The notes beneath the pieces were generated by a model. It was not told the DNA's origin. It worked only from the letters and a program-made list of their open reading frames with translations, and ran no database searches. Positions 6,870 to 18,737 of a stretch of DNA of 23,155 bases are shown one piece after another. Where the stretch lies: the IMG/VR virus record IMGVR_UViG_3300030202_003123, positions 1,277-24,431 of that record; one strand, given 5' to 3'. Each line of letters opens with the position of its first letter. The stretch's first letter is position 1. Source of the stretch: a virus. Made by a program: the position numbers and the translations under genes.

Positions 6870-8816
6870 TTAATATGATGATAATACAAAGTTGGATGAA
6901 ACCGAAAACAGTTCTTTCATCCCACCTGAATCTGTATTAGTATCTGTTGATACTTTCACTGTAGCTATATAACCTTTTATTCCACTTACTTGATTACCAA
7001 ATATGATCTCTCCAGGTCTAGCAACGCTAGAACTAATAAGGTTAGCTACGTATTTATTTTCTTTTCTATTAAACCCTGCTCTATAAGTTACACCATTGGT
7101 AGTATATTTACCTTCTTCATAACTTTTAACAGAGTTAGTGGTATCTTGATATTGATTACCAGCACTGTATGCTAACGGGTTTGTAAATGGTACGTTAGGA
7201 TCAATACCTTCAAAATCAGATTTAAACGAATCTACCTCCCATCCATTTCCACCTTCGTAAGCAACTGTATTAAAGTTTTTAACTACAGTAGGATTAGGAT
7301 TAAAAATAAAGGTTATACTTGTTTCAGCTGGAGTTGTAGCTCCATAAAACTTGCCTCTATTGTTAGCAGTAGTGTTATCGTAATGTTCGTATATAGTATT
7401 TTTATAAAAAGTGTAAAACTTATTTTTCAAACTATCTAACTGGTTAGGTTTGTAAGTATAAAAACTTGTCCAACCTGAAGCACCTTCGTCAAAAGATACT
7501 GTAGTAAAAGTAGAAGCATCAGTTGATATATTTGCTGGGGTTGTTTGTAAAGACACTACGTAGTTTTGATTGTGAATATCGTAACCACCTAGAGCTTTAT
7601 CTTTTCTATATGTAATAAATATAATCTCATCGTCATTAGCTGCTATAGTTATACTAGGACTAACCTCAACCGTACATGTGGCGCCAGCGTCAGTAACCTT
7701 AGTTACGATGCTAGTAGTAGAAGTTGTAACCTCAGTTGTAGAATTATATAAAGAGATTTGAGCACCTACTTCAATATCACAACATGAGTCACTTGTAACA
7801 GAAACTGATGAGTAAGGTCCACCAGCAGCTGTTGCTAAATCTTTGTATACTGTAGTTGGTTTATACTCATTGTCTATAGTTGCTAAGTAATCTCTGAAGT
7901 AATCTCTCATACCGTAAGCTGAGATTTCAGTTATACCATCTCTTGATAATCTCAGTACTGCAGCTCTGTTTCTATCAATGAAATACTTCCTATATCCAAA
8001 GATTGCAAATGATTCGGGATTTTTACTTATTCCATATTCTCCTAAGTAAGGAACTAGTTGACCTATAAAACTAGGTAAACCTAAAGCTTCGTTAGCTCCT
8101 TGCTCTCCAGAATATACAGTTGTTTTGTTTATTAAAGCTTTACTTACTTTGTTTTCTTGGAATATTATTAAGTTGGTGTCTTCACTATACAGTTTTTGAA
8201 TACTACCGTTTATAGGTTCAGCATCTTTCATTATAGCTTCGCTAACAGAAAACACGTTAGTTTCGTTATAACCAGTTCTTATATTATAAACTCCAGAAAA
8301 TATTAAACTATGAGATCTATTTATTTTATCTCTATTATCATTTACAGCATAAGCTCTAATACCTAGATCTACAATACTGTTATTAAATCCACCTTTTATC
8401 CTAGCTTCTTCTACATAATAATTTTGAGTGCCAGACTTTGGAGTTCCTGATGATCCACCAGAACCAAAAGGAAATGGTTTAGTTGTTAATGTTAAAGTAC
8501 AATTATTACCTCCTCCGTTCACTGTGAATGTGTTACCAGAAACAATATTTGTTCCAGGATTAACAATAGTAACAGCTGTTATTGCGCCTGCTACAGCCGT
8601 AGTGTCTACTATTAAACCTCCACCAGCACCTGTAACCGTTGTTGTTGCAACGTCTGTTGCGCTACTATATCCAGTATTAACACCACTTATAGCAACGCTA
8701 AAAGCGCCATATGGATTCCATGGTAAACCAGGCCAACTAGGATCTGTATCTCCATTTTTAACAACTTTTTTTAACCAAAAAGAATTAAAATAATTTACCT
8801 CTATTGTTGCTGCCAT
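6870..8816 (-). CDS. Tail structural protein, crAss/uvMED-like, 648 residues
   Basis: Residues 134-320 and 405-424 carry segments I associate with a conserved marine and crAss-like tail protein: YVEEARIKGGFNNS, then GSIQKLYSEDTNLIIFQENK, then GYRKYFIDRNRAAVLRLSRD, then ALGGYDIHNQNYVVSLQ. The composition is beta-rich. Two regions look inserted. Residues 39-112 form a divergent copy of the repeated Gly-rich beta cassette. Residues 336-404 are a Thr/Val/Ser-rich beta segment between the DNEYKPTTVYKD and RKDKALGGYD parts of the core. The start codon overlaps the stop of the 1311-residue gene by one base (TAATG), which implies translational coupling. It probably forms part of the distal tail with that protein. 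The exact position in the tail is not deducible from sequence. Confidence 0.75.
   Translation of the reverse strand: MAATIEVNYFNSFWLKKVVKNGDTDPSWPGLPWNPYGAFSVAISGVNTGYSSATDVATTTVTGAGGGLIVDTTAVAGAITAVTIVNPGTNIVSGNTFTVNGGGNNCTLTLTTKPFPFGSGGSSGTPKSGTQNYYVEEARIKGGFNNSIVDLGIRAYAVNDNRDKINRSHSLIFSGVYNIRTGYNETNVFSVSEAIMKDAEPINGSIQKLYSEDTNLIIFQENKVSKALINKTTVYSGEQGANEALGLPSFIGQLVPYLGEYGISKNPESFAIFGYRKYFIDRNRAAVLRLSRDGITEISAYGMRDYFRDYLATIDNEYKPTTVYKDLATAAGGPYSSVSVTSDSCCDIEVGAQISLYNSTTEVTTSTTSIVTKVTDAGATCTVEVSPSITIAANDDEIIFITYRKDKALGGYDIHNQNYVVSLQTTPANISTDASTFTTVSFDEGASGWTSFYTYKPNQLDSLKNKFYTFYKNTIYEHYDNTTANNRGKFYGATTPAETSITFIFNPNPTVVKNFNTVAYEGGNGWEVDSFKSDFEGIDPNVPFTNPLAYSAGNQYQDTTNSVKSYEEGKYTTNGVTYRAGFNRKENKYVANLISSSVARPGEIIFGNQVSGIKGYIATVKVSTDTNTDSGGMKELFSVSSNFVLSSY
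8481..8702 (-). repeat. Divergent beta cassette copy in the 648-residue tail protein
   Basis: This stretch encodes about residues 39-112. It has GAITAVTIVNPGTNIVSGNT, which keeps the strand-PG-turn-strand pattern, with GTNIVSGN in place of the Gly-x-Gly-Tyr-x-x-Gly-Asp core. Confidence 0.5.
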
Positions 8817-11800
8817 TATGTTATCGTTATTGTTATTACACTAGACTTTTTACTTAAACCACCACCATCAACTACTTTTAATCTGACAGTGTAAACGCCT
8901 ACAGATAGACCAGCTATTGCATCTAACGCAGCATTTTGAGTTGTACCGTCTGGAGTTAAAGTGAAGTATCCAGTAGTACTAACATCAACACCACCTAATT
9001 TTACACTAACTATAGACCAATTAAGTTCAAGTCCTTTTAAAGCTGTAGTTCCACTACCATTAGTAGCTACAGCATTAAATACATTGCCACCAGCAGCACT
9101 TGTGCCACTGCCTGAACCTCCTAAGAAAGGTGCAGGTTGTGTAAATGTAGGTGCTACGTTCAACATTCTGAAAGGATTACCTTGTAGTGGTAGATCCATA
9201 GATATTGTTGTTCCGTCTAAAGCCCACGTACTACTCTTAACAACCACCCTCACAACAAAAGTCCAATCATGATGTGAATTAGAAGTTGCTCCATAGTATA
9301 AACCGGTATTAGATGTTATCTTAAACAGCCCAGCGCCACTTCCTGATGCCGTAGCAAACGAACTAACCCAGTCTACACCTCTTCTATCTAGAGCTGATAT
9401 TAATGTAGTAGATAGCATCTCTGTTGCTAAGCTTGCTCCACCAGCGTTATATGCTGTAAAATCTCCAGTAACATTTGTAGTGCTACCTTGGATTAAAGTG
9501 CCTTCTGTTACTAAAGAAACAACGTCTCCACCTGAACCATTTTTCAAAGTGCTTGGAGTATTTGGATCTGAACCACCACCACTTACAATAGCTGTATTTA
9601 ATGTAGATATTAAACCTGCTGTTGATGTTTCCCAATAGATGTCTAGTTTAGATTCTAGTGGCTCTGTTTCATATACAGTAAGTATAGGATACATATTATT
9701 AAAGTCAGAGGCCTTGAGAGTTATTATAGCAGGTCTAGAACCTCCATAAGTTCCCGTGGCTAATGTTATAGTATCTCCAGGAATAAAACCTTCACCAGGA
9801 TCTGAAACAGTTAACACTGTTATAACTCCACCTGCAACAGTAAAATTTAATTTTAGACCTTCACCATTGGAACTACTTGTAGTAACACCTGCGGTTACTC
9901 CAACTTCTTGATTAACATAACTGGTATTCGTTGCTCCATCAAAGTTTTGTGTTATACTGTCTAGTAAATCCACTCCATTTGTAACTGTTCCATAACCTCT
10001 TTTATTAACGGTTAAAGTAAAAGTAGCATTGTTATCTCCAGCTAGTATTTTACAATTTGTTATAGTCATTGGATATGAAGCATTAATTAAATCCCAACCT
10101 TCACCTTCATCGTCTATAGAAATTGAGTTAGGAATACCAGCACCAGTAATACTCCAAACAGCTACTTGCAGTCCAGTTCCTGCTCCTACAGGTGCGTCGC
10201 TTGGAAACTCAACAGCTATATTTCTCGAACCAGCAACATAATTTAATCCACCAGATAAACCACCACATTGAAACCATAACTTACCTGCGTAAGGACTAGG
10301 TCCTGTTTCACCAACAGTAAAATCAGAAGTGTTTATTCTAGCAATGTAAGGGTTGTCTTCATAATTATAAAACACTGGAGCAACATTAAAAGGAACTATA
10401 GCAGATGGATCCCATAAACCTAAATCTTGACCTGTACCTATAGTTGTTACTAAATCAGTATTAGTGCCTGGATACCATTGCTGAGTTGTAGATCCTGAGT
10501 TGTTGTTAACCCTAAGTGACATTTTAATACTAGCATTTGTAACTTGACTACCTGAATCTAAGTCCCTAACTCGATCTCTAAGAGATAAAAATCTTTCTCC
10601 TTCTTCAGAATATGGATCAACAGTAAATAGTTCACCGTCAGTGTTTGTAAATTTGTAATAATCTGGATCTTCAGAAAAACTAGGTCTACCACTTCTAAAT
10701 ATATTTTGATTAGGACCTACTAAACTTAAGTCTCTAGGTATTTTATTTATATTGTCACTATATAAAGCTATGTGAGCTATAGGTTCTCCAGCTTCGGCAG
10801 GTAGTGGATATTTCATATCACCATTTATGTATCCATTTAGTATACCTGGAAAATAAACATTATAATAATCTTGCTGTTGTTGCTTCACAACTATCTTATA
10901 GCTATACCAACCCAGTGGATTAGTAGTTGCATCGTATAATCCTGGAGCTCCTGTAGCTGAAGACTTATCAGAAAGTATTTGATCTATAAAAGTAACTTTT
11001 AAAGAATCACCAGGCCAAGTATCTGACGATGTAAGTAAATCTTCAGCATTAGTATTTGGATAAGTTGAAAAAGGAGATTCTTTAAATGGATGGAAAAGAG
11101 TTGAACCTTTCAAAGTAGTAGAACTAGAACTAGTATCTATTTCTGAAAGTAGTGTTGTTGATTGTCTACCATACCTGTCTGATAATACAACTCCTACTTG
11201 ATAGTTCCTATTTTGCTTTAAAGTATGGTTTTGATATTCTTTTTCTAATGTTAAAGTATCTTTAGTATCAGCTGATACGTTGTAGTTCAGTGCTATTGGA
11301 GGAGTGGGTTTATCAATAAAGTTGCCATATATAACTCTATTCGCACTAACTTCTTGGGCTAAAGCCCTGACAGGTACTTGATCAAAAACTCTAGTCAATT
11401 CTTTATCAGGTAGTACTTTATAAGGTTTTAATGATTGATATTCGTATTCATAATTTAAGTTAGGTGATAAGTTAAATACATCTACAGAAACCGTGTCTAC
11501 AACTCTTATTGATGTTTCACCCGCTAACTTCATAAGAATATCCATTTCAACAATATTTAAATCTGAACCTACTTGACTCCAAGCATTACCACTAGGCGTA
11601 GGTATTTGCAAAAGAATATTATTTATTTTATTCTCCATGAAAGATACCTCAGTGCTTTTAAACGTTCTATCTTCATCATCACCTATAAAATAACCATCTT
11701 GCTTAGGAACAAAACAAGCTTGAGTAAATGGTGCTATTAAAGAATATTCGTCGTCATCAAATTTAAATCTATAACTAAAACTAGCAAATTTATCTTTTAG

Positions 11801-12751
11801 GTAATCTTCATCACCAGGCCAGTTTTTATTATATAAAGGATTGCTTGTACCGTCTGGCAAAGTTTCACTAACAACATCTTGCATCGTACTTACAATGCCC
11901 GTAACAATAGTAACTTGACATTGTTGAGTTATGGTTCCAGACACTGGATTATTTCTAGGAATTAATTGAATCACATCGCCATTAGCATAACCTGTGCCTG
12001 GCTCGGATATAGAAACAGCTGTTACTGCACTAGCAGCAGTATTATCTATGTTTACTGTCATACCACTACCTGAACCACTTATAGTAGTTGTCTTACAACT
12101 AGGATCAACAACTGTAAAACCACTACCGACACTACCATCTCCTGCGCCCGCTTGAGTAATAGTTAAACCAACTACTTCTTCTTTATATAGTAATATAGGT
12201 TGATAAGGATATATTTTAGCTACAGATATATTATCTTCAGATTGATAATAAGTGTTGTCAGCTATAGCGGTTGTTAAGTTTATTTTTCTAGGTTGGTTTC
12301 TATTATCAGTCCAAAACAATAAATCTTCTATTAAGTTAACACCATACACTTCTTGTGTTTTAGAAAAATTAAGAAACCTACCACTAACAATTACTTGAGA
12401 TTGACCTGTTAAAACGTGATGAACACCTATAGCATGTAAAGAATCTGCACTAGCAAAGTTAGATAAATTATCTCCAGATGTATCAACAAAGTTAGTCATA
12501 AAGACTATTATCCTGTCATTTACAACATCCATATATTTACCTATAATACTAATGTTACAGTCAGCATAATCAGCACCCCAAGTATTTAGCGCTAAGTTAC
12601 CTAACACGTTCTCTAAAGCTCCTACATCATCTCCTTCAGATTTACTAATCATCACGTTAAAAGCCTCTCTATACTCACCAGAAGGCACTAGTCGCGCGTC
12701 TAAATCCCTGTTCATTCGAGATTTGAGGAAATTGTTTCTTACTTCAGCCAT
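8816..12751 (-). CDS. Large tail protein, crAss-like muzzle candidate, 1311 residues
   Basis: The N-terminus (residues 6-52) has the NNFLKSRMNRDLDARLVPSG start followed by a Glu/Asp-Val-Gly-Ala-Glu-Asn segment, which I recognise as a signature of the large tail protein of crAss-like and related marine phages, where the counterpart forms the tail muzzle. Further core motifs include NRVIYGNFIDKP (471-482) and QVGVVLSDRYGRQS (518-531). Beta-rich cassettes with a G-x-G-[YFW] core lie at about 195-283, 840-913 and 934-1018. The C-terminal 115 residues begin with NVAPTF and end in a YTVRLKVVDGGGLS strand typical of cadherin-like or Ig-like folds. There are 4 bases to the preceding gene and a 1-base overlap with the next. 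The muzzle role is inferred from family resemblance. Many Gly/Ser/Thr linkers suggest a surface-exposed multi-domain fibre-like part. Confidence 0.75.
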   Translation of the reverse strand: MAEVRNNFLKSRMNRDLDARLVPSGEYREAFNVMISKSEGDDVGALENVLGNLALNTWGADYADCNISIIGKYMDVVNDRIIVFMTNFVDTSGDNLSNFASADSLHAIGVHHVLTGQSQVIVSGRFLNFSKTQEVYGVNLIEDLLFWTDNRNQPRKINLTTAIADNTYYQSEDNISVAKIYPYQPILLYKEEVVGLTITQAGAGDGSVGSGFTVVDPSCKTTTISGSGSGMTVNIDNTAASAVTAVSISEPGTGYANGDVIQLIPRNNPVSGTITQQCQVTIVTGIVSTMQDVVSETLPDGTSNPLYNKNWPGDEDYLKDKFASFSYRFKFDDDEYSLIAPFTQACFVPKQDGYFIGDDEDRTFKSTEVSFMENKINNILLQIPTPSGNAWSQVGSDLNIVEMDILMKLAGETSIRVVDTVSVDVFNLSPNLNYEYEYQSLKPYKVLPDKELTRVFDQVPVRALAQEVSANRVIYGNFIDKPTPPIALNYNVSADTKDTLTLEKEYQNHTLKQNRNYQVGVVLSDRYGRQSTTLLSEIDTSSSSTTLKGSTLFHPFKESPFSTYPNTNAEDLLTSSDTWPGDSLKVTFIDQILSDKSSATGAPGLYDATTNPLGWYSYKIVVKQQQQDYYNVYFPGILNGYINGDMKYPLPAEAGEPIAHIALYSDNINKIPRDLSLVGPNQNIFRSGRPSFSEDPDYYKFTNTDGELFTVDPYSEEGERFLSLRDRVRDLDSGSQVTNASIKMSLRVNNNSGSTTQQWYPGTNTDLVTTIGTGQDLGLWDPSAIVPFNVAPVFYNYEDNPYIARINTSDFTVGETGPSPYAGKLWFQCGGLSGGLNYVAGSRNIAVEFPSDAPVGAGTGLQVAVWSITGAGIPNSISIDDEGEGWDLINASYPMTITNCKILAGDNNATFTLTVNKRGYGTVTNGVDLLDSITQNFDGATNTSYVNQEVGVTAGVTTSSSNGEGLKLNFTVAGGVITVLTVSDPGEGFIPGDTITLATGTYGGSRPAIITLKASDFNNMYPILTVYETEPLESKLDIYWETSTAGLISTLNTAIVSGGGSDPNTPSTLKNGSGGDVVSLVTEGTLIQGSTTNVTGDFTAYNAGGASLATEMLSTTLISALDRRGVDWVSSFATASGSGAGLFKITSNTGLYYGATSNSHHDWTFVVRVVVKSSTWALDGTTISMDLPLQGNPFRMLNVAPTFTQPAPFLGGSGSGTSAAGGNVFNAVATNGSGTTALKGLELNWSIVSVKLGGVDVSTTGYFTLTPDGTTQNAALDAIAGLSVGVYTVRLKVVDGGGLSKKSSVITITIT
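9698..9952 (-). repeat. Beta cassette copy C in the 1311-residue tail protein
   Basis: This stretch encodes residues 934-1018 with the core DPGEGFIPGD. It is the close partner of the cassette in the 347-residue connector protein. Confidence 0.8.
10013..10234 (-). repeat. Divergent beta cassette copy B in the 1311-residue tail protein
   Basis: This stretch encodes about residues 840-913. The core is DEGEGWDLIN, with the Gly-x-Gly-aromatic step kept but the GD lost. It is preceded by GTGLQVAVWSITGAG in place of the usual GLK-x-x-x-TV-x-GG strand. Placement in the family is by pattern only. Confidence 0.5.
11903..12169 (-). repeat. Beta cassette copy A in the 1311-residue tail protein
   Basis: This stretch encodes about residues 195-283 with SGSGMTVNIDNTAASAVTAV and the core EPGTGYANGDVIQL. 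It lies between the conserved ILLYKEEVVG and VVSETLPDGTS parts of the tail core, consistent with an inserted domain. Confidence 0.65.
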
Positions 12752-12755
12752 TCAA

Positions 12756-13928
12756 TTAGTGTTTAATCCATTTAGATTTACCTCTCATTATTTGAGTAAA
12801 TTCTTCTAACTTAATATTTGACAATCTTATTTTAGCATTTCTTAAAGCAGCTCTTCTATCGACTTTATATCTTCTAACAACATATTCAGGTACGTTAACT
12901 CTACCAGCTAATATAGAGTAAGCTATATGCATATAAATAGCTTCTTCAGCCATCTTAGGTATACGCATATCATAGTCTACAGATAAACCATCAGAAACAT
13001 ATTCTAATAATATTAATCTACCTTTTAAATTACTACTAAAAGAAAATTTACCTTCTCTATAGTTTATAGTAAACCAACCATTCTTCTGTGAAGTTTCTGG
13101 TTCTAATCCATATCTTTGACCATAAGCGACTTTATCCCATGTCCAACCTAGTATATTAGCGTTGTAAAAGTCTAAGTCTATATTACCAGATATTAACTTA
13201 TCATTAGCAGTATCCCACCTTTGTTCTATAATAGAAGGTCCTTGTTCGTTTTCACCTAGACTGTTTTGAGTTGGTATACCACTACCATCCGAGTTTGGTA
13301 CAGGTATTTCATAAGGATTACCTGTTAATGTTGTTGGGTATATAATATGTTTAACACCAAAGTCATCGATCCAAGACATTTGTACGTAGTTAACGTAGTC
13401 TTGAGGAATAATAACAGATAAACTATCTGGTATAGTTAACTCTTGAGATTTAATACTTCTTAATGTATCATAGCTAAACTCCTGCAATCCACGCTTAGCG
13501 TGAAACATTACATCAGTTCTTTTAACATGTGGTATTAATTTTCCAGCTCCAACATATGCTACTAAAAAGTTATTAATAACGTCAGCCATAGAAATATATT
13601 CATACCCACCGTAGTTAGCTTCCATAGCTAGTGTAGTAAGTTGAATCTTAACTTTATCACCAGCACCTAAAGCAACTACTGAAATAGTGTTATTGTTTAC
13701 TCCAACAGAGTATTGAGCTGCACCGATAGGAGCAGGTGGAATAACTTCTGTATACTTAACATAACCAGCGCCTGTATCTACATATACCTCCACATTGGTA
13801 TTAGTTGTTGAAGTAGTGCCTACTAGTATAGTATCACCAGTCCATACAAAATTTGTTTGTGCTGCTGTAGCTGTAATTATCTGTTGACCAGCATAATATT
13901 GTTGATTAGTTTCTGTTAGTAGTCCCAT
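12756..13928 (-). CDS. Tail ring/connector protein, crAss-like, 390 residues
   Basis: The C-terminal 65 residues (IPKMAEEAIYMHIAYSILAG at 323-342, LRNAKIRLSNIKLEEF at 362-377, then RGKSKWIKH ending at 390) form a pattern I associate with the conserved tail ring protein of crAss-like phages. The middle (about 105-200) is a mixed helical/beta region with YISMADVINNFLVAYVG and the QDYVNYVQMSW strand. The N-terminal 100 residues are a Thr/Val/Gly-rich beta region that looks like an added domain and includes EVIPPAPIGAAQYS at 61-74, closely matching SVIPPQPIG in the 205-residue head protein. The gene lies between another connector-like gene and the large tail gene, with 7- and 4-base gaps. The proposed role is a neck or tail ring joining the portal to the distal tail. 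Confidence 0.8.
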   Translation of the reverse strand: MGLLTETNQQYYAGQQIITATAAQTNFVWTGDTILVGTTSTTNTNVEVYVDTGAGYVKYTEVIPPAPIGAAQYSVGVNNNTISVVALGAGDKVKIQLTTLAMEANYGGYEYISMADVINNFLVAYVGAGKLIPHVKRTDVMFHAKRGLQEFSYDTLRSIKSQELTIPDSLSVIIPQDYVNYVQMSWIDDFGVKHIIYPTTLTGNPYEIPVPNSDGSGIPTQNSLGENEQGPSIIEQRWDTANDKLISGNIDLDFYNANILGWTWDKVAYGQRYGLEPETSQKNGWFTINYREGKFSFSSNLKGRLILLEYVSDGLSVDYDMRIPKMAEEAIYMHIAYSILAGRVNVPEYVVRRYKVDRRAALRNAKIRLSNIKLEEFTQIMRGKSKWIKH

Positions 13929-13935
13929 GTTTTAT

Positions 13936-14979
13936 TTAGCTTTTTTCTAATACTTCATCTTGTTGTACCATGCTAGCAGCAGTTTGTACAATTTGTGGAT
14001 CTCTTATAACAACGCCACTATACATTAGTATTTGTAGTATTAGATTAGTTTGTTCTGTTGGGTGTAGTTCAAATTGAGTAGAACCATAAGTAGATCCAGA
14101 ATTTAAATCTGCAGCTGCTAAAGTAACTATTTGGTTGGTAGCACCACCAAAAGTAACTCTATCAAATTCAACTTGATCACCTACAGAAAAACCAGTACCT
14201 ACATCAGTTACAGTAAGTACTGTTGTCACACCACCAACTACAGTCATACTCATTTTTAAACCTGTGCCAGAACCGCTTGTTGTTACTCCAGCCGAAACAC
14301 CTGGTTCTAGATTAGTATAAGAAGTATTTGTAGCACCTGAAAATTGAGTAGTTATACTCGTTAATAAACTGCTGTTTATGTTTAAAGATCCTGAATTGTA
14401 AGTAGTACTATCATAAATATATTGCCCTAAGCTACCTACTGAGTAACCCCATCTAGGATCAACTGGAGCTTTTATATAGTTACATCTAACATTAGATGTT
14501 ATAGAACTAGGATGCACTACTATTTGACTAGGCGCAGCAGATGGTGCACCTGTAGTTTCTCCAATGTAAACTGGGTAAGAAGTTGTTGGCTTTGTTAATG
14601 GAGAGTTGTTTAGTAAAGTATACTCTGCCCTATTAACTTTTTGAATACCTATTGAAGGTATAACTGAACTACCGTCTAATTTTATAGATCCTATACGATG
14701 AACATCTGTTGGTAGTGTAAAATGAGGATTAACATAAGTGCATAAATTACTTGTGTTAAATATATCTATTTTCTCTTCTAAGTTTGCTACACGATTAGCA
14801 TATTCGCTATCGTTTTGTGGTATACGTAATTGTTGATTTAACTCTTCAAAATACGCTTCAAATATTTCTCTTTGTACTTGCGTGCCTAGAGTGTTAAATT
14901 CGTCTGGTGTTATATATCCTCTCTGCTCTTTGTTTAAGATATATAGCACTGTTTTATAAACTGTATTTACGTTTACCAT
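13936..14979 (-). CDS. Head-tail connector/ring protein with inserted beta cassette, 347 residues
   Basis: The N-terminal 75 residues are helical (TVYKTVLYILNKEQRGYITP, then QREIFEAYFEELNQ), followed by a beta core with LPTDVHRIGSIKLDG and KAPVDPRWGY (170-179). The C-terminus resumes with TQFELHPTEQTNLILQILMY (301-320). In relatives I recall, the WGY strand and the FELH segment are close together. Here about 85 residues (211-293) of Gly/Thr-rich beta cassette lie between them, flanked by short Ser/Gly linkers (STTYNSGS, SGSTYGS). The start ATG follows an A/T-only leader immediately after the terminator at 14997-15026, so this gene opens the tail module. The role as a neck ring protein is inferred from position next to the 390-residue ring protein and the remembered family pattern. 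Confidence 0.75.
   Translation of the reverse strand: MVNVNTVYKTVLYILNKEQRGYITPDEFNTLGTQVQREIFEAYFEELNQQLRIPQNDSEYANRVANLEEKIDIFNTSNLCTYVNPHFTLPTDVHRIGSIKLDGSSVIPSIGIQKVNRAEYTLLNNSPLTKPTTSYPVYIGETTGAPSAAPSQIVVHPSSITSNVRCNYIKAPVDPRWGYSVGSLGQYIYDSTTYNSGSLNINSSLLTSITTQFSGATNTSYTNLEPGVSAGVTTSGSGTGLKMSMTVVGGVTTVLTVTDVGTGFSVGDQVEFDRVTFGGATNQIVTLAAADLNSGSTYGSTQFELHPTEQTNLILQILMYSGVVIRDPQIVQTAASMVQQDEVLEKS
14101..14349 (-). repeat. Beta cassette copy in the 347-residue connector protein
   Basis: This stretch encodes residues 211-293 and aligns by hand with residues 934-1018 of the 1311-residue tail protein at about 49 of 85 positions. Shared blocks are GATNTSY, AGVTTS, GLK, TVLTV, GF-x-x-GD and a final TL-x-A-x-D-x-N. 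It is the clearest pair of the family in this window. Confidence 0.8.
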
Positions 14980-14996
14980 ATTAATATTTTTTAAAA

Positions 14997-15026
14997 AAAA
15001 AGGATGGCGGTTAAGCCACCCTTTTT
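14997..15026 (-). terminator. Rho-independent terminator after the 256-residue gene
   Basis: On the minus strand a 12-base-pair stem (AAAAAGGGTGGC with GCCATCCTTTTT, one G-T pair) encloses a 6-base loop and is followed by further T residues. It begins 13 bases past the stop of the 256-residue gene and ends just before the leader of the 347-residue gene. It therefore separates head and tail transcription units. Confidence 0.85.
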
Positions 15027-15038
15027 AATAATCACTTG

Positions 15039-15809
15039 TTATTTGAGTTTTTTCTCTATCGACTTGTAAACTTCTAAACCTTCATCTGTTTTAAACCAAG
15101 CAGCCATAGCTGAATATGGGTTTTCTTCAAATGGAACAGTCATTAACTTACGACCATTACTTCTCCATTTAAAAGTTCGTTGATCATCTTCTAAAGATAT
15201 GATATTGTTTTCAACCGCTACAATAGCGAAGTTTCTTAATACAACATTTTCATCATTAGCAAGATTAAGAAAAAGCTCTGGGTTTCTTTTTGCAAATAAA
15301 ACACCATCTCTTTTAAGTTCTTTACTAGATAAATTGTTTACACTAGATCCCATTTCAACTCTCAATATAGCTTCTAACTGATCTATATCCATAGCGTGAG
15401 CATTATTCATAGCTTCTAGTTCTACTTCTAGTTTATCAAACTCGTCAACAGCTTCTTTAACTGCATCAAACTCTTCAAATATAACACCTTTGTGAGGGTG
15501 TTTAGCTAGAAATTGTTGTAAACTAGGTTTTTCTTTAGGAACCATTAAATGCCCACTTTCAAAAACAATATGCTTCAATGTAGCACTTCCTTGTTGTTCA
15601 TCAACAAAAATACTTTTTTGATTAGTAGCATATCTCATCTCTCTCTCATAACCTTTCTCTTCATCAAACCATACTAATGGATATCTTCTAGTGTGTCTAG
15701 AGGTTATAGTATAGTTTAAAGGTTTTTTATTTCCTAGTAAATAGTAGTTTCTATCTTTATATTCCCAAGTATCTTTTACTTGAGTAGTTTTTTCTTTTGT
15801 TTTTTCCAT
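15039..15809 (-). CDS. Conserved phage protein of unknown function, 256 residues
   Basis: I recognise no named domain. The N-terminal 85 residues are basic and beta-like (NYYLLGNKKPLNYTITSRHT). Residues 95-100 and 112-150 are acidic and helical. About 175-215 form Leu/Asn/Val-rich helices (FAKRNPELFLNLANDENVVL). The C-terminus has GRKLMTVPFEENPYSAMAAW and ends Lys-rich; I have a general memory of this C-terminal pattern in marine phage structural clusters but cannot name it. There is no signal peptide or membrane segment. It is a single-gene unit: it has its own AT-rich 21-base repeat leader upstream, which recurs only before the scaffold-like gene, and a strong terminator downstream. That suggests expression set apart from its neighbours. 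A virion or assembly role is inferred from context. Confidence 0.75.
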   Translation of the reverse strand: MEKTKEKTTQVKDTWEYKDRNYYLLGNKKPLNYTITSRHTRRYPLVWFDEEKGYEREMRYATNQKSIFVDEQQGSATLKHIVFESGHLMVPKEKPSLQQFLAKHPHKGVIFEEFDAVKEAVDEFDKLEVELEAMNNAHAMDIDQLEAILRVEMGSSVNNLSSKELKRDGVLFAKRNPELFLNLANDENVVLRNFAIVAVENNIISLEDDQRTFKWRSNGRKLMTVPFEENPYSAMAAWFKTDEGLEVYKSIEKKLK

Positions 15810-15812
15810 GAT

Positions 15813-15833
15813 ATAATATAATATAATAATTAA
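15813..15833 (-). promoter_or_regulatory. AT-only 21-base repeat leader, copy 1
   Basis: It lies 3 bases upstream of the ATG of the 256-residue gene and is identical over 21 bases to the leader of the scaffold-like gene at 19903-19923. On the minus strand it reads as repeated TTATA/TATTA units. It could be a promoter element, a translation enhancer or both; the sequence does not decide. Confidence 0.4.
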
Positions 15834-15858
15834 ATACTCGAATAAACGAGTTTGTTTT

Positions 15859-16476
15859 TTACTTTCCGCTAATAGCTTTTAGTGAACCGGAACTAACACT
15901 AACGCCTGGCGGTAGTGGACGTAAATTAACATCTAGACCGGGGTTTTGATATAATTCTAAAACAGCTCGGTCAAACACTTCTGCTACATTTGCGCTATTG
16001 TTAGCTGTTACTCCTTCCACTCCTAACTCCCATTTTCTGCGAGCACCTGGTTGTATTTGTGCTATTGAAATTGTACCAAAATCACCAATAGGTTGAGGTG
16101 GAATAACACTAGTAATCTGTCCAGTTCGTGGTACAACCACATATACTGTAGATCCTTCTGCATTTAACATGTTTGCTGTAACTGTAAAACCAATACTACC
16201 TGTAAAATTAGTAGTATTTCCAGCTATACTTAATACATCTCCCACTGAGTAACCTGAACCAGCTGTGGTTATTTCAACTTGAGTCATAGCTGTTCCTCCA
16301 CCAGCAATTGTAACTGTTGCTTTAGCACCGCTACCTGAACCACCAGTTATAGGTAATCTCGTAACAACACCATCAGCAACCCACACCATAGCTGTTACAT
16401 CTAAATCTAAAGGACCAAGTAATGTTTGTCCAGCGAGTGAACTACTATCAAGTGGTATTATAATTCCGTTTTGCAT
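15859..16476 (-). CDS. Putative head-associated (auxiliary capsid or head fibre) protein, 205 residues
   Basis: The N-terminus (residues 1-40) is a beta segment starting MQNGIIIPLDSSSLAG. Residues 47-105 are a copy of the Gly-x-Gly-Tyr beta cassette. Residues 108-150 hold SVIPPQPIGDFGTISI, a motif nearly repeated in the 390-residue ring protein. The C-terminal 45 residues have a helix ending in YQNPG (176-180), followed by a Pro-rich tail. The helix-then-PG pattern also ends the two small genes upstream (101 and 114 residues), suggesting the three share a fold. Position shortly after the capsid gene argues for a capsid-surface, vertex or head-fibre protein. The leader AATTTAAAAATAAAATTATG has no Shine-Dalgarno sequence. 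I know no family name for it. Confidence 0.7.
   Translation of the reverse strand: MQNGIIIPLDSSSLAGQTLLGPLDLDVTAMVWVADGVVTRLPITGGSGSGAKATVTIAGGGTAMTQVEITTAGSGYSVGDVLSIAGNTTNFTGSIGFTVTANMLNAEGSTVYVVVPRTGQITSVIPPQPIGDFGTISIAQIQPGARRKWELGVEGVTANNSANVAEVFDRAVLELYQNPGLDVNLRPLPPGVSVSSGSLKAISGK
16162..16338 (-). repeat. Beta cassette copy in the 205-residue head protein
   Basis: This stretch encodes about residues 47-105 with SGSGAKATVTIAGGG, QVEITTAGSGYSVGDVLSI and a trailing FTVTANMLN that parallels the L-x-A-x-D-x-N ending of the other copies. Confidence 0.65.
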
Positions 16477-16486
16477 AATTTTATTT

Positions 16487-16831
16487 TTAAATTGTCAATA
16501 ATGGTGCTGCAATAGGTAAACCAATACCATCTTCAGTTTTAAGGTAAAAATTTTTACCTAAAACCGTTGAAGCTTTTACAATTCCACCTGGTTGTGAATT
16601 TACTCTTTTTACAAGCTGCCACAGAGCATCGGATTGAGCTTGGGTAGGAAGAGATTGAAAACCTAAACTAACAGTAAAGTCACCATCTCCAGCTGATACA
16701 ACAGTAGAAGCGTAATTATAGTGAAATATAAATCCGTTGATTCTAAAGTTGTAAACTAACTTGTACACGTTGCTGACGTTTAAATGGACACTTCTATTAG
16801 CGTCTAATTCAAACTCTATGAAGTTTGCCAT
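16487..16831 (-). CDS. Putative small head protein, 114 residues
   Basis: It is a small beta-rich protein (IEFELDANRSVHLNVSNVYK, YNFRINGFIFHYNY) followed by a helix (QAQSDALWQLVKRVNSQPGG, about 73-92) and a final strand region. The helix ends with a PG turn as in the neighbouring 101- and 205-residue proteins. No known domain is recognised. It lies 10 bases before the 205-residue gene and 64 bases after the 101-residue gene. The gap to the latter contains a strong terminator hairpin, so this gene may depend on read-through or on a promoter I cannot identify. The A-rich leader GCAAATAAAATTATG matches other leaders here. An auxiliary capsid role is inferred from position only. Confidence 0.7.
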   Translation of the reverse strand: MANFIEFELDANRSVHLNVSNVYKLVYNFRINGFIFHYNYASTVVSAGDGDFTVSLGFQSLPTQAQSDALWQLVKRVNSQPGGIVKASTVLGKNFYLKTEDGIGLPIAAPLLTI

Positions 16832-16859
16832 AATTTTATTTGCTTTTAAATGTTAATAA

Positions 16860-16883
16860 AAGATCCCACCGAAGCGGGATCTT
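16860..16883 (-). terminator. Rho-independent terminator with cUUCGg loop after the 101-residue gene
   Basis: On the minus strand AAGATCCCGC pairs with GTGGGATCTT (10 pairs, one G-T) around a UUCG tetraloop closed by C-G, an exceptionally stable loop type. TTTTATTAAC follows. It starts 12 bases past the stop of the 101-residue gene. Confidence 0.8.
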
Positions 16884-16895
16884 ACTTTATTTTAA

Positions 16896-17201
16896 TTAAC
16901 TGTGAGATTGAACACAATCAGAAACCGCGTAAGTAGAAGTATCAATTGATACAAGTTCACCTGGGTTTTGTTGTGCTTCTCTAAGAGCATCAACTACTAG
17001 TTTAATAAAAGTTGGTACTGCAGCTCCAACAGCAGCATGAGTCAAAGTAATAATTTGATTCTTGTCAGCAACCATAGCGTAAGTAATTACGGTAGAAGTA
17101 GATCCTCCTGTAACTGCTACTATGTTGTCTGTTGGAATTGGTTTTGTAGTGTTTTCTGATCCTGTTCCAGAACCAGCTACCGTCACATAAATATAGCTCA
17201 T
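16896..17201 (-). CDS. Putative small head protein, 101 residues
   Basis: This is the first gene after the major capsid gene. The protein is short and beta-rich (MSYIYVTVAGSGTGSENTTK, VITYAMVADKNQIITLTHAA) with one helix at about 65-78 (FIKLVVDALREAQQNPGE) ending in a PG turn, then VSIDTSTYAVSD and an unusual CVQSHS end. No known domain is recognised. Hairpin terminators lie on both sides (17228-17249 and 16860-16883), which isolates it as a short unit and fits an abundant capsid-decorating or cement protein expressed with, or shortly after, the capsid protein. That role is inference. The leader TTTTAAAATAGAAATTATG lacks a Shine-Dalgarno sequence. Confidence 0.7.
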   Translation of the reverse strand: MSYIYVTVAGSGTGSENTTKPIPTDNIVAVTGGSTSTVITYAMVADKNQIITLTHAAVGAAVPTFIKLVVDALREAQQNPGELVSIDTSTYAVSDCVQSHS

Positions 17202-17261: not shown

Positions 17262-18737
17262 TTAAGCTCCTTGGAATAATACGAAATTATTAGCAGCTTG
17301 AGTTACTAAACATCTTTCAGTTAAGAAATTAACTTTCATTACATCTAGATCAGAAGTGTAAGCACCTCCAACAGAACCAGTGATCCAAGATTTAAATCTT
17401 CTATCCTCTGTTTCTGAAGCTCTGTATCGAACGTGTAAGAATGGACGTCTAATATTAGAACCTAACATTTGATCATATACTGTCGAAGTTCCAGCAGGAA
17501 CTAAAACACCATCAATTGCGTTAGACATACCTCTAGTAGTAGCATCGTTTAGATATTTCCAATCAGTTTTGTAGAAGTCATAAGAACCTCTTCTGAAACC
17601 AGAAAATCCAAAGTTTAACGCCATTTCAGCTTCGTTGTCAAAAAGACCATAAGAAGCAGCAGCAGTTGAAGCGTAGTTACCATTCATAGCAGCGATCATA
17701 TCATCGAAATCAAGAGCAGTAGCTCTAGATAAAAATAACATGTTTTCTTCAATAGCACCTTGCTTATCTAATTGCTTAAGGATTTCATCGAAATCTCCTA
17801 ATGCACCTGAACCAGGAGCAGCAGCACCAGCAAAACCAGAGTATACATTACCTCTTGCTTCGATAGCAGCAAATAAACCTTCAGTACCTTTGATGTTTTG
17901 TGCAGCACCACCTGGAGTAAAACCAGCACCAAAAGGTGTAGCAGCATTAGTCATAAGTTCACCTTCAACTAATCCCATCTCCATGTAATCTTCAAATCTA
18001 AGTCTAGTTTCAGACTCAGCTTTTAGATACCATAAGAAACCAGATGTTCCATCTTCAGTAGCAACTTCGATCCAACCAATTTGAGCAGCATCAGAACCAC
18101 TTAACTCATAATTATCTTTCATAATAATTGGTGAGTTGTTGTAAGTTGTAACACCAGGCTCAATAGCTCCAGACATTCCGTTACTTCCTTTTGGAAATTC
18201 AGAACCGTATACAAATAAGCTGTTAGTAGCAGCACCTGTAACGATACCAGCTGGAATAGCAGCAGCAGTTGTTTCGTATAACTCACAAGTTAAAGTATAA
18301 CCTGTAGCGTTGATAGCAGTTACTAAAGCTTTAGCAGTAACTAAACCAGTAGCATTGTCAGAAACTAAAATTGTATTACCAACTCTAACACCTGAAGTAG
18401 CAGGGTTACCAGCACCAGGAGTGATAGTAACTGTAACTGTTGCACCAGCACCAGCAGCAACTTGTACGGTGTTGTACGCTACGTGTAATCTATTTTGTTC
18501 AGACCAAATTACTTGATCAGAAGTCATTGGCATTTCAGCGCCAACCATTCTTAAAAATCCAGATAAGGTTCTGTTACCATATCTCTCTACCTCTTGCTCA
18601 TAAAGCTCAGGTAAGTATTGTTGTGCCCACTGCGAAACAGCTAGGTTATTAAAGTCAAGATAGTTATCTTGAACCGTAACCTGGTTCGGCATAGGTACGA
18701 TTGATGCGGGAAAACTCCCACCTGTTACAAAGCTCAT
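17262..18737 (-). CDS. Major capsid protein, crAss-like HK97-fold candidate, 491 residues
   Basis: The protein has the size, composition and place of a phage major capsid protein: after portal and scaffold, followed by a terminator, and with even Ala/Gly-rich codons (many GCA and GGT) unlike its AT-richer neighbours, consistent with high expression. The segment GWIEVATEDGTSGFLWYLKA (221-240) followed by ESETRLRFEDYMEM (241-254) matches the crAss-like capsid pattern I know. The C-terminal half contains the mixed domain typical of the fold (MLFLSRATALDFDDMIAA at 333-350, RRPFLHVRYRASETEDRRFK at 430-449). Residues 93-185 are a Thr/Val/Gly-rich beta insertion. No protease gene is visible, so maturation cleavage is uncertain. 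The leader CAAAAACTATAAATTATG is A/T-rich without a Shine-Dalgarno sequence. Confidence 0.85.
   Translation of the reverse strand: MSFVTGGSFPASIVPMPNQVTVQDNYLDFNNLAVSQWAQQYLPELYEQEVERYGNRTLSGFLRMVGAEMPMTSDQVIWSEQNRLHVAYNTVQVAAGAGATVTVTITPGAGNPATSGVRVGNTILVSDNATGLVTAKALVTAINATGYTLTCELYETTAAAIPAGIVTGAATNSLFVYGSEFPKGSNGMSGAIEPGVTTYNNSPIIMKDNYELSGSDAAQIGWIEVATEDGTSGFLWYLKAESETRLRFEDYMEMGLVEGELMTNAATPFGAGFTPGGAAQNIKGTEGLFAAIEARGNVYSGFAGAAAPGSGALGDFDEILKQLDKQGAIEENMLFLSRATALDFDDMIAAMNGNYASTAAASYGLFDNEAEMALNFGFSGFRRGSYDFYKTDWKYLNDATTRGMSNAIDGVLVPAGTSTVYDQMLGSNIRRPFLHVRYRASETEDRRFKSWITGSVGGAYTSDLDVMKVNFLTERCLVTQAANNFVLFQGA

Follow-up and report, generated by a model that had tools for sequence, protein, structure and literature searches.

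In phages, the exchange of accessory domains is known best from Ig-like and receptor-binding domains. That phage proteins are domain mosaics is well established, and RIFT-related domains of tail and neck proteins are among the known examples (PMC10684548). Thus, the kind of phenomenon described here is already known. For Ig-like accessory domains, weak binding to surfaces has been postulated (PMC9230969). In crAss-like phages of the gut, BACON domains are accessory beta domains of tail-associated proteins (PMC6949934). Domain I of the T4 tail sheath protein gp18 is an outward six-stranded barrel with a helix, which is inserted in a virion protein (PMC3004832). RIFT barrels, which owe their name to riboflavin synthase, F1-ATPase and translation factors, have a GD box (PMC4802759). 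In phicrAss001, IG1 of the muzzle comprises residues 163-292; insertions are behind the length variation of muzzles, and surface properties can be changed by them (PMC10172136).

We analyzed a stretch of 23,155 nucleotides (the window) from a virus record, which is a 24.4-kb fragment. Five copies of one homologous module of about 85 residues, which we call the cassette, are present in four genes of the window. Its fold is a different and apparently unnamed one, inserted in machinery that is usually conserved: the tail-barrel ring protein, the gatekeeping muzzle and a neighbor of the capsid protein. No model in Pfam or NCBIfam covered the cassette convincingly, and no Pfam family scored above its cutoff. 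In the open-access literature, we found no description of the cassette in ring, muzzle or head-associated proteins of crAss-like phages.

The cassette resembles Ig-like domains in being an optional beta domain that is shared horizontally and added to different virion proteins. However, it is a GxG[YF]xxGD barrel that weakly resembles the EF-Tu type, in contrast to the Ig sandwich. No Ig family was among the Pfam hits, and the top PDB fold matches were EF-Tu-type barrels, none of them significant. The cassette differs from BACON in that it occurs as single inserts in the ring, muzzle and head-associated proteins, whereas BACON domains form tandem arrays. BACON was absent from the Pfam matches at E 0.1, so the cassette belongs to a different family. 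With T4 gp18 domain I (PF22639), the cassette has a [S/T]-x-P-G-S-N-Y-x-V-G-D hairpin in common, and weak matches were seen in 8 of 39 copies. PF22639 is the nearest Pfam entry: the best E-value among the 39 copies was 0.0029, the g205 copy scored 16.6 bits against a cutoff of 27, and hhalign gave 89%, but over 23 columns only. Because the match comprises only the GD hairpin (22-23 columns, below the Pfam cutoff) and gp18 is absent among the PDB fold matches listed, we rejected domain I as a homologue and do not claim membership of PF22639. The cassette copies matched marine cyanophage families such as phrog_6005, phrog_32294, phrog_438 and phrog_460 (best E 2.6e-9 to 1.8e-6), which thus have the same profile, and the same fold is seen in BFVD models. 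The cyanophage copies are in different proteins (baseplate wedge, fiber and head closure) of unrelated phages, and the domain is unnamed in the libraries searched. The cassette is common to a crAss-like phage and to unrelated cyanophages.

The phage and the proteins that carry the cassette

All main genes are encoded on the minus strand; their order is terminase, portal, scaffold-like protein, major capsid protein (MCP), two small proteins (g101 and g114), g205, g256, g347, g390, g1311, g648, g236, g637 and g1408. The phage belongs to the Crassvirales and is related to the Pervagoviridae. This placement is given by the Pfam muzzle models, the PHROG families, the ring fold of 7qoj and synteny with Cellulophaga phage phi38:1 (Pervagoviridae), which runs from the portal onward, except for the small proteins that lie between MCP and g256. 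The phage is probably marine, as judged by its closest cultured relatives rather than by metadata.

The coordinates of the genes and cassettes are given in Table 1. The predicted structure of g347 matched chains F, E and D of 7qoj, the tail-barrel ring proteins of phicrAss001 (E 2e-5 to 5e-5). Thus, g347 is a crassvirus tail ring protein, and the label of connector, given to it in a previous interpretation made from the DNA alone (the sequence-only reading), was wrong. In that reading, the 1311- and 648-residue products were two tail proteins; the Pfam and PHROG matches identify them as the halves of one split muzzle. The 205-residue "head protein" is a paralogue of the MCP-adjacent proteins g101 and g114, and its place in the virion is putative. 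A core profile of g205, from which the cassette had been removed, found g101 at 6e-15 on iteration.

Table 1 Genes and cassette copies in the window. Positions are counted from the first nucleotide of the window.
Feature	Position	Strand	Description	Evidence
g648	6870..8816	-	C-terminal part of split muzzle	Pfam crAss_MUZ_C, E 1.3e-7; phrog_14478 positions 919-1096
g1311	8816..12751	-	N-terminal part of split crassvirus muzzle	Pfam crAss_MUZ, E 6.5e-10; phrog_14478
g347	13936..14979	-	Tail-barrel ring protein	Model compared with phicrAss001 ring proteins
g205	15859..16476	-	Paralogue of g101/g114 (small, MCP-adjacent) with a cassette	Iterated core profile and alignment
g491	17262..18737	-	MCP; phylogenetic anchor	phrog_13704, E 4e-95
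Cassette in g648, about residues 43-112	8481..8690	-	Most divergent copy	Window-free HMM, residues 43-104, E 1.3e-7; own-record search, 7.7e-10
Cassette in g1311, residues 933-1019	9695..9955	-	Modeled alone	Window-free HMM, E 1.7e-16
Proposed third cassette in g1311, residues 853-914	10010..10195	-	Unconfirmed	E 0.02, 4.7 bits; hhalign 7%
Cassette in g1311, residues 207-285	11897..12133	-	N-terminal variable site; 15-32 residues there in relatives with the shortest connection	Window-free HMM, E 6.2e-12
Cassette in g347, residues 207-294	14098..14361	-	In ring protein; barrel strands, high pLDDT in full-length model	Window-free HMM, E 4.7e-17
Cassette in g205, residues 34-105	16162..16377	-		Window-free HMM, E 8.6e-18; own-record search

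Several further features of these genes should be mentioned. The stop of g1311 and the start of g648 share one base at position 8816. The muzzle is a single gene in phi38:1 (1324 aa) and phicrAss001 (1371 aa) and two ORFs (1311 and 648 aa) in the window; it is also split into two ORFs in most relatives with sequence at that place. The second ring-type protein, g390, has about 100 additional N-terminal residues compared with phi38:1 gp096 (283 aa), and this extension (residues 1-105, positions 13614-13928) is probably another add-on beta domain. The small MCP-adjacent proteins g114 and g101 (positions 16487-17201) form a paralogous group with the g205 core. Only one such small protein is found in most relatives, and phi38:1 has none at this place.

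Five copies of one beta cassette

The first family model was seeded with five copies from the window and iterated over the proteins encoded at 80 related viral loci. No reversed-protein decoy scored below E 0.01 with this model. Because the model had been seeded from the window, we rebuilt the profile from 106 copies on other contigs, none of them from the window. This window-free profile recovered five copies with E-values from 8.6e-18 to 1.3e-7. Thus, the proposal that a glycine-rich beta cassette recurs in four proteins is confirmed. The five copies scored 21-54 bits, whereas the maximum for shuffled sequences (200 shuffles per protein, all 15 window proteins) was 9.5 bits. When the complete 24.4-kb record was searched in six frames, the matches fell at these five places, and leave-one-gene-out profiles recovered g205, g347, g648 and both strong g1311 copies. 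Furthermore, separately built profiles matched each other (ring versus head, 98.3%, E 1.5e-14; ring versus muzzle, 96.4%; head versus muzzle, 95.4%).

The g648 copy had been described as more divergent, and it is the weakest of the five. Up to three copies had been proposed for g1311: those at residues 207-285 and 933-1019 stood, and the third was rejected since its score lies within the shuffle range. MCP was also considered as a carrier and was rejected, with an hhalign match to the cassette of only 7%.

Insertion sites and distribution among related phages

We compared 53 ring proteins, namely that of the window and 52 orthologues or paralogues. The cassette was present in 15 and absent in 38. 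Ring proteins with the cassette have 331-364 aa, in contrast to 229-266 aa without it, and the flanks close over cleanly. The syntenic ring protein of phi38:1 (about 232 aa) does not possess the cassette. On the MCP tree, the ring-cassette trait changes 8 times, and at least 7 of these changes are forced by well-supported branches. The window falls within a 100%-supported set of 8, the other 7 members of which have no ring cassette. In one relative, L025, there are two ring paralogues (8474-9466 and 10069-10821), and the extra one has the cassette in another loop than all others. The natural pairs of ring proteins with and without the cassette make its function directly testable.

The N-terminal variable site of the muzzle, which aligns inside phicrAss001 IG1, holds 15-352 residues between conserved anchors in 36 sequences, and a cassette is present in 8 of them. 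In the cassette-free sequences, the site is short or is occupied by a different sequence; for example, it is nearly empty in phi38:1 and L035. In L004, L005, L009, L014, L031 and L032, the slot contains unrelated sequences instead, up to 352 residues long, for which a Pfam search gave nothing significant. A second portable module was considered for the V..GM.V inserts at this site and was rejected: an iterated search recovered only its own four seeds. The g648 site has 110 residues in the window versus 29-68 in 21 of 22 relatives.

The absence of the cassette from most ring proteins and muzzle sites of relatives agrees with the suggestion that the copies are insertions between conserved core segments. 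Because the ring insert is clean and optional and the muzzle site is variable among relatives, the term "modular" is justified for these proteins. In g205, the cassette is placed between the conserved N-terminus and the remainder of the protein, and it was found in all nine proteins of the longer g205 type among relatives. Thus, it is a fixed, non-optional part there.

Copies were counted in 41 loci with MCP, the ring protein and at least the beginning of the muzzle. Twenty loci have none, 12 have one and 8 have two; the window has five confirmed copies (six by the family model). These counts are lower bounds because the muzzle is truncated in several loci and divergent copies may be missed. 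The complete phi38:1 and phicrAss001 genomes do not contain the cassette. Therefore, a genus-wide decoration system, as had been imagined, is not supported: half of the 40 comparable relatives have no cassette, the other half have one or two, and the window phage is an outlier.

For only 3 of 57 copies does the nearest copy lie in a different protein at the same locus. Most are closest to a copy of another phage and thus look like separate acquisitions. The g1311 copy at residues 933-1019 is one of the three exceptions: its nearest copy is in the ring protein g347 (58% over 85 residues; DNA, 62%), and it may be an old internal duplication. Single copies matched 18 PHROG families, and every named one is a virion protein (baseplate wedge, tail fiber, head closure and others). 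A search with the g205 copy found 54 cultured-phage records, almost all from cyanophages. Records in cultured phages are undercounted, as some consensus or glycine-rich tblastn queries came back empty, probably through low-complexity filtering. A scan of genome contigs with one copy found only two MAG contigs. In marine phages unrelated to this one, the cassette occurs sporadically in proteins of the fiber, baseplate and neck and behaves there as an exchangeable addition to the surface. If the domain were given a name, parts of many "virion structural proteins" could be annotated.

Predicted fold and possible role

AlphaFold modeled full-length g347, including the insert, with a mean pLDDT of 91.5 and the isolated g1311 copy (933-1019) with a pLDDT of 92.0 and a pTM of 0.80. 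The strand order is identical in the two models (3-5, 13-19, 26-28, 37-43, 46-54, 64-67 and 78-81, then a short helix; the offset is about 206 in g347). The copies had been expected to share a fold, and both models give one barrel at a pLDDT of about 92, although they are not fully independent because both input alignments include related copies. The cassette is thus predicted to fold autonomously. In a Foldseek search of predicted viral structures (BFVD), it matched many marine-phage fiber, tail, baseplate and "virion structural" proteins with a probability of 1.0 and a TM of up to 0.71. In contrast to these matches, no PDB entry was found below E 0.001, and no RIFT barrel matched significantly (best E 1.2, TM 0.34; TM at most about 0.36). 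The weak PDB matches (E above 1) were mostly EF-Tu, with V/A-ATPase among them; these are RIFT namesakes (PMC4802759). A conserved G-D (80% and 83%) directly precedes a strand (64-67) and is reminiscent of the GD box known from RIFT and cradle-loop barrels. These features hint at a RIFT-like barrel, which we regard as a lead and not as a classification.

The core pattern of the cassette is GSGxGA...GG...G-x-G-[YFW]-x-x-G-D. The positions conserved among copies are turn glycines, one aromatic residue and one Asp, which speaks against one ligand site common to all copies. Because the conserved positions look structural, the scaffold would be shared and the exposed loops would be free to vary.

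We consider it probable that the cassette is a portable barrel, which was recombined into permissive loops of virion proteins and which most likely projects from them as a weak, variable add-on for surface contact or bracing. It would be an independently folding beta-barrel of about 85-90 residues with seven short strands and a one-turn helix. Recombination would have placed it in permissive loops of the tail-barrel ring protein, of the split tail-tip muzzle (several sites) and of g205. The core folds of the ring and muzzle proteins would not need it. Since the cassette is predicted to fold alone and its insertion into a loop would leave the host fold undisturbed, it could be gained and lost freely. 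As an accessory surface domain, it may make weak contacts or brace its neighbors, as is supposed for phage Ig-like and BACON domains. We infer that the cassette is displayed outward, because 12 extra barrels would not plausibly fit in the DNA-conducting channel, and that it contributes to adhesion or stability instead of having no role. With 12-subunit rings and a hexameric muzzle, as in phicrAss001, each particle would carry 12 cassettes from g347 and 18 from the muzzle.

The barrels may instead be host-surface adhesins, which bind envelope or capsule glycans of Bacteroidota and keep the virion near the cell. We regard this idea as possible but somewhat doubtful. It is consistent with the location of cassettes at the tail tip and ring, and a comparable role has been suggested for Ig-like and sheath add-on domains of phages (PMC9230969) and for BACON repeats associated with tails (PMC6949934). 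However, no aromatic or polar surface patch was seen to be conserved across copies, no carbohydrate-binding family scored above threshold in the Pfam search of the copies, and phages of cyanobacteria, which are unrelated hosts, have the cassette as well. Glycan binding is only a working hypothesis.

Another conceivable explanation, which we hold just as tentatively, is structural bracing or a selectively near-neutral spacer: the cassette would fill permissive loops and stabilize its neighbors, or simply be tolerated, with no ligand. The sporadic occurrence with frequent gain or loss, the other inserts in the same muzzle site and the glycine-rich, scaffold-only conservation are in line with this explanation, whereas the wide persistence of a conserved fold in virion proteins of many phages suggests selection.

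It is very unlikely that the cassette is an integral, ancestral part of each host protein, immobile and lost in some relatives. The presence of the cassette in every g205-type paralogue found and the repeated use of the same ring loop in distant clades would fit such a history, but the ring alignment largely refutes it: most ring orthologues, including that of phi38:1, have no cassette, the L025 paralogue uses a different loop, and one profile is common to copies in unrelated proteins. A compositional artifact, in which independent Gly/Ser/Thr-rich beta segments resemble each other, is hardly credible despite the low-complexity flavor of the cassette and its weak antibody light-chain matches in PDB sequence searches (taken as composition-driven), and it is refuted for the five copies by the decoys, the shuffles and the confident common fold, although the rejected sixth copy (g1311 853-914) may be one.

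In addition to the portable add-on favored here, a broader and rather unlikely idea can be considered. An unnamed cradle-loop-type barrel might be a common-currency surface module of aquatic phages, used by unrelated virus groups in every compartment of the virion, from head-associated proteins, neck and tail ring to baseplate, fiber and tail tip, and its exceptional load here might provide the entire particle with a single contact chemistry.

Tandem arrays of the cassette are present in three other viruses (L115, L132 and L159). The period of these arrays is about 42-50 residues, which suggests a smaller repeating unit.
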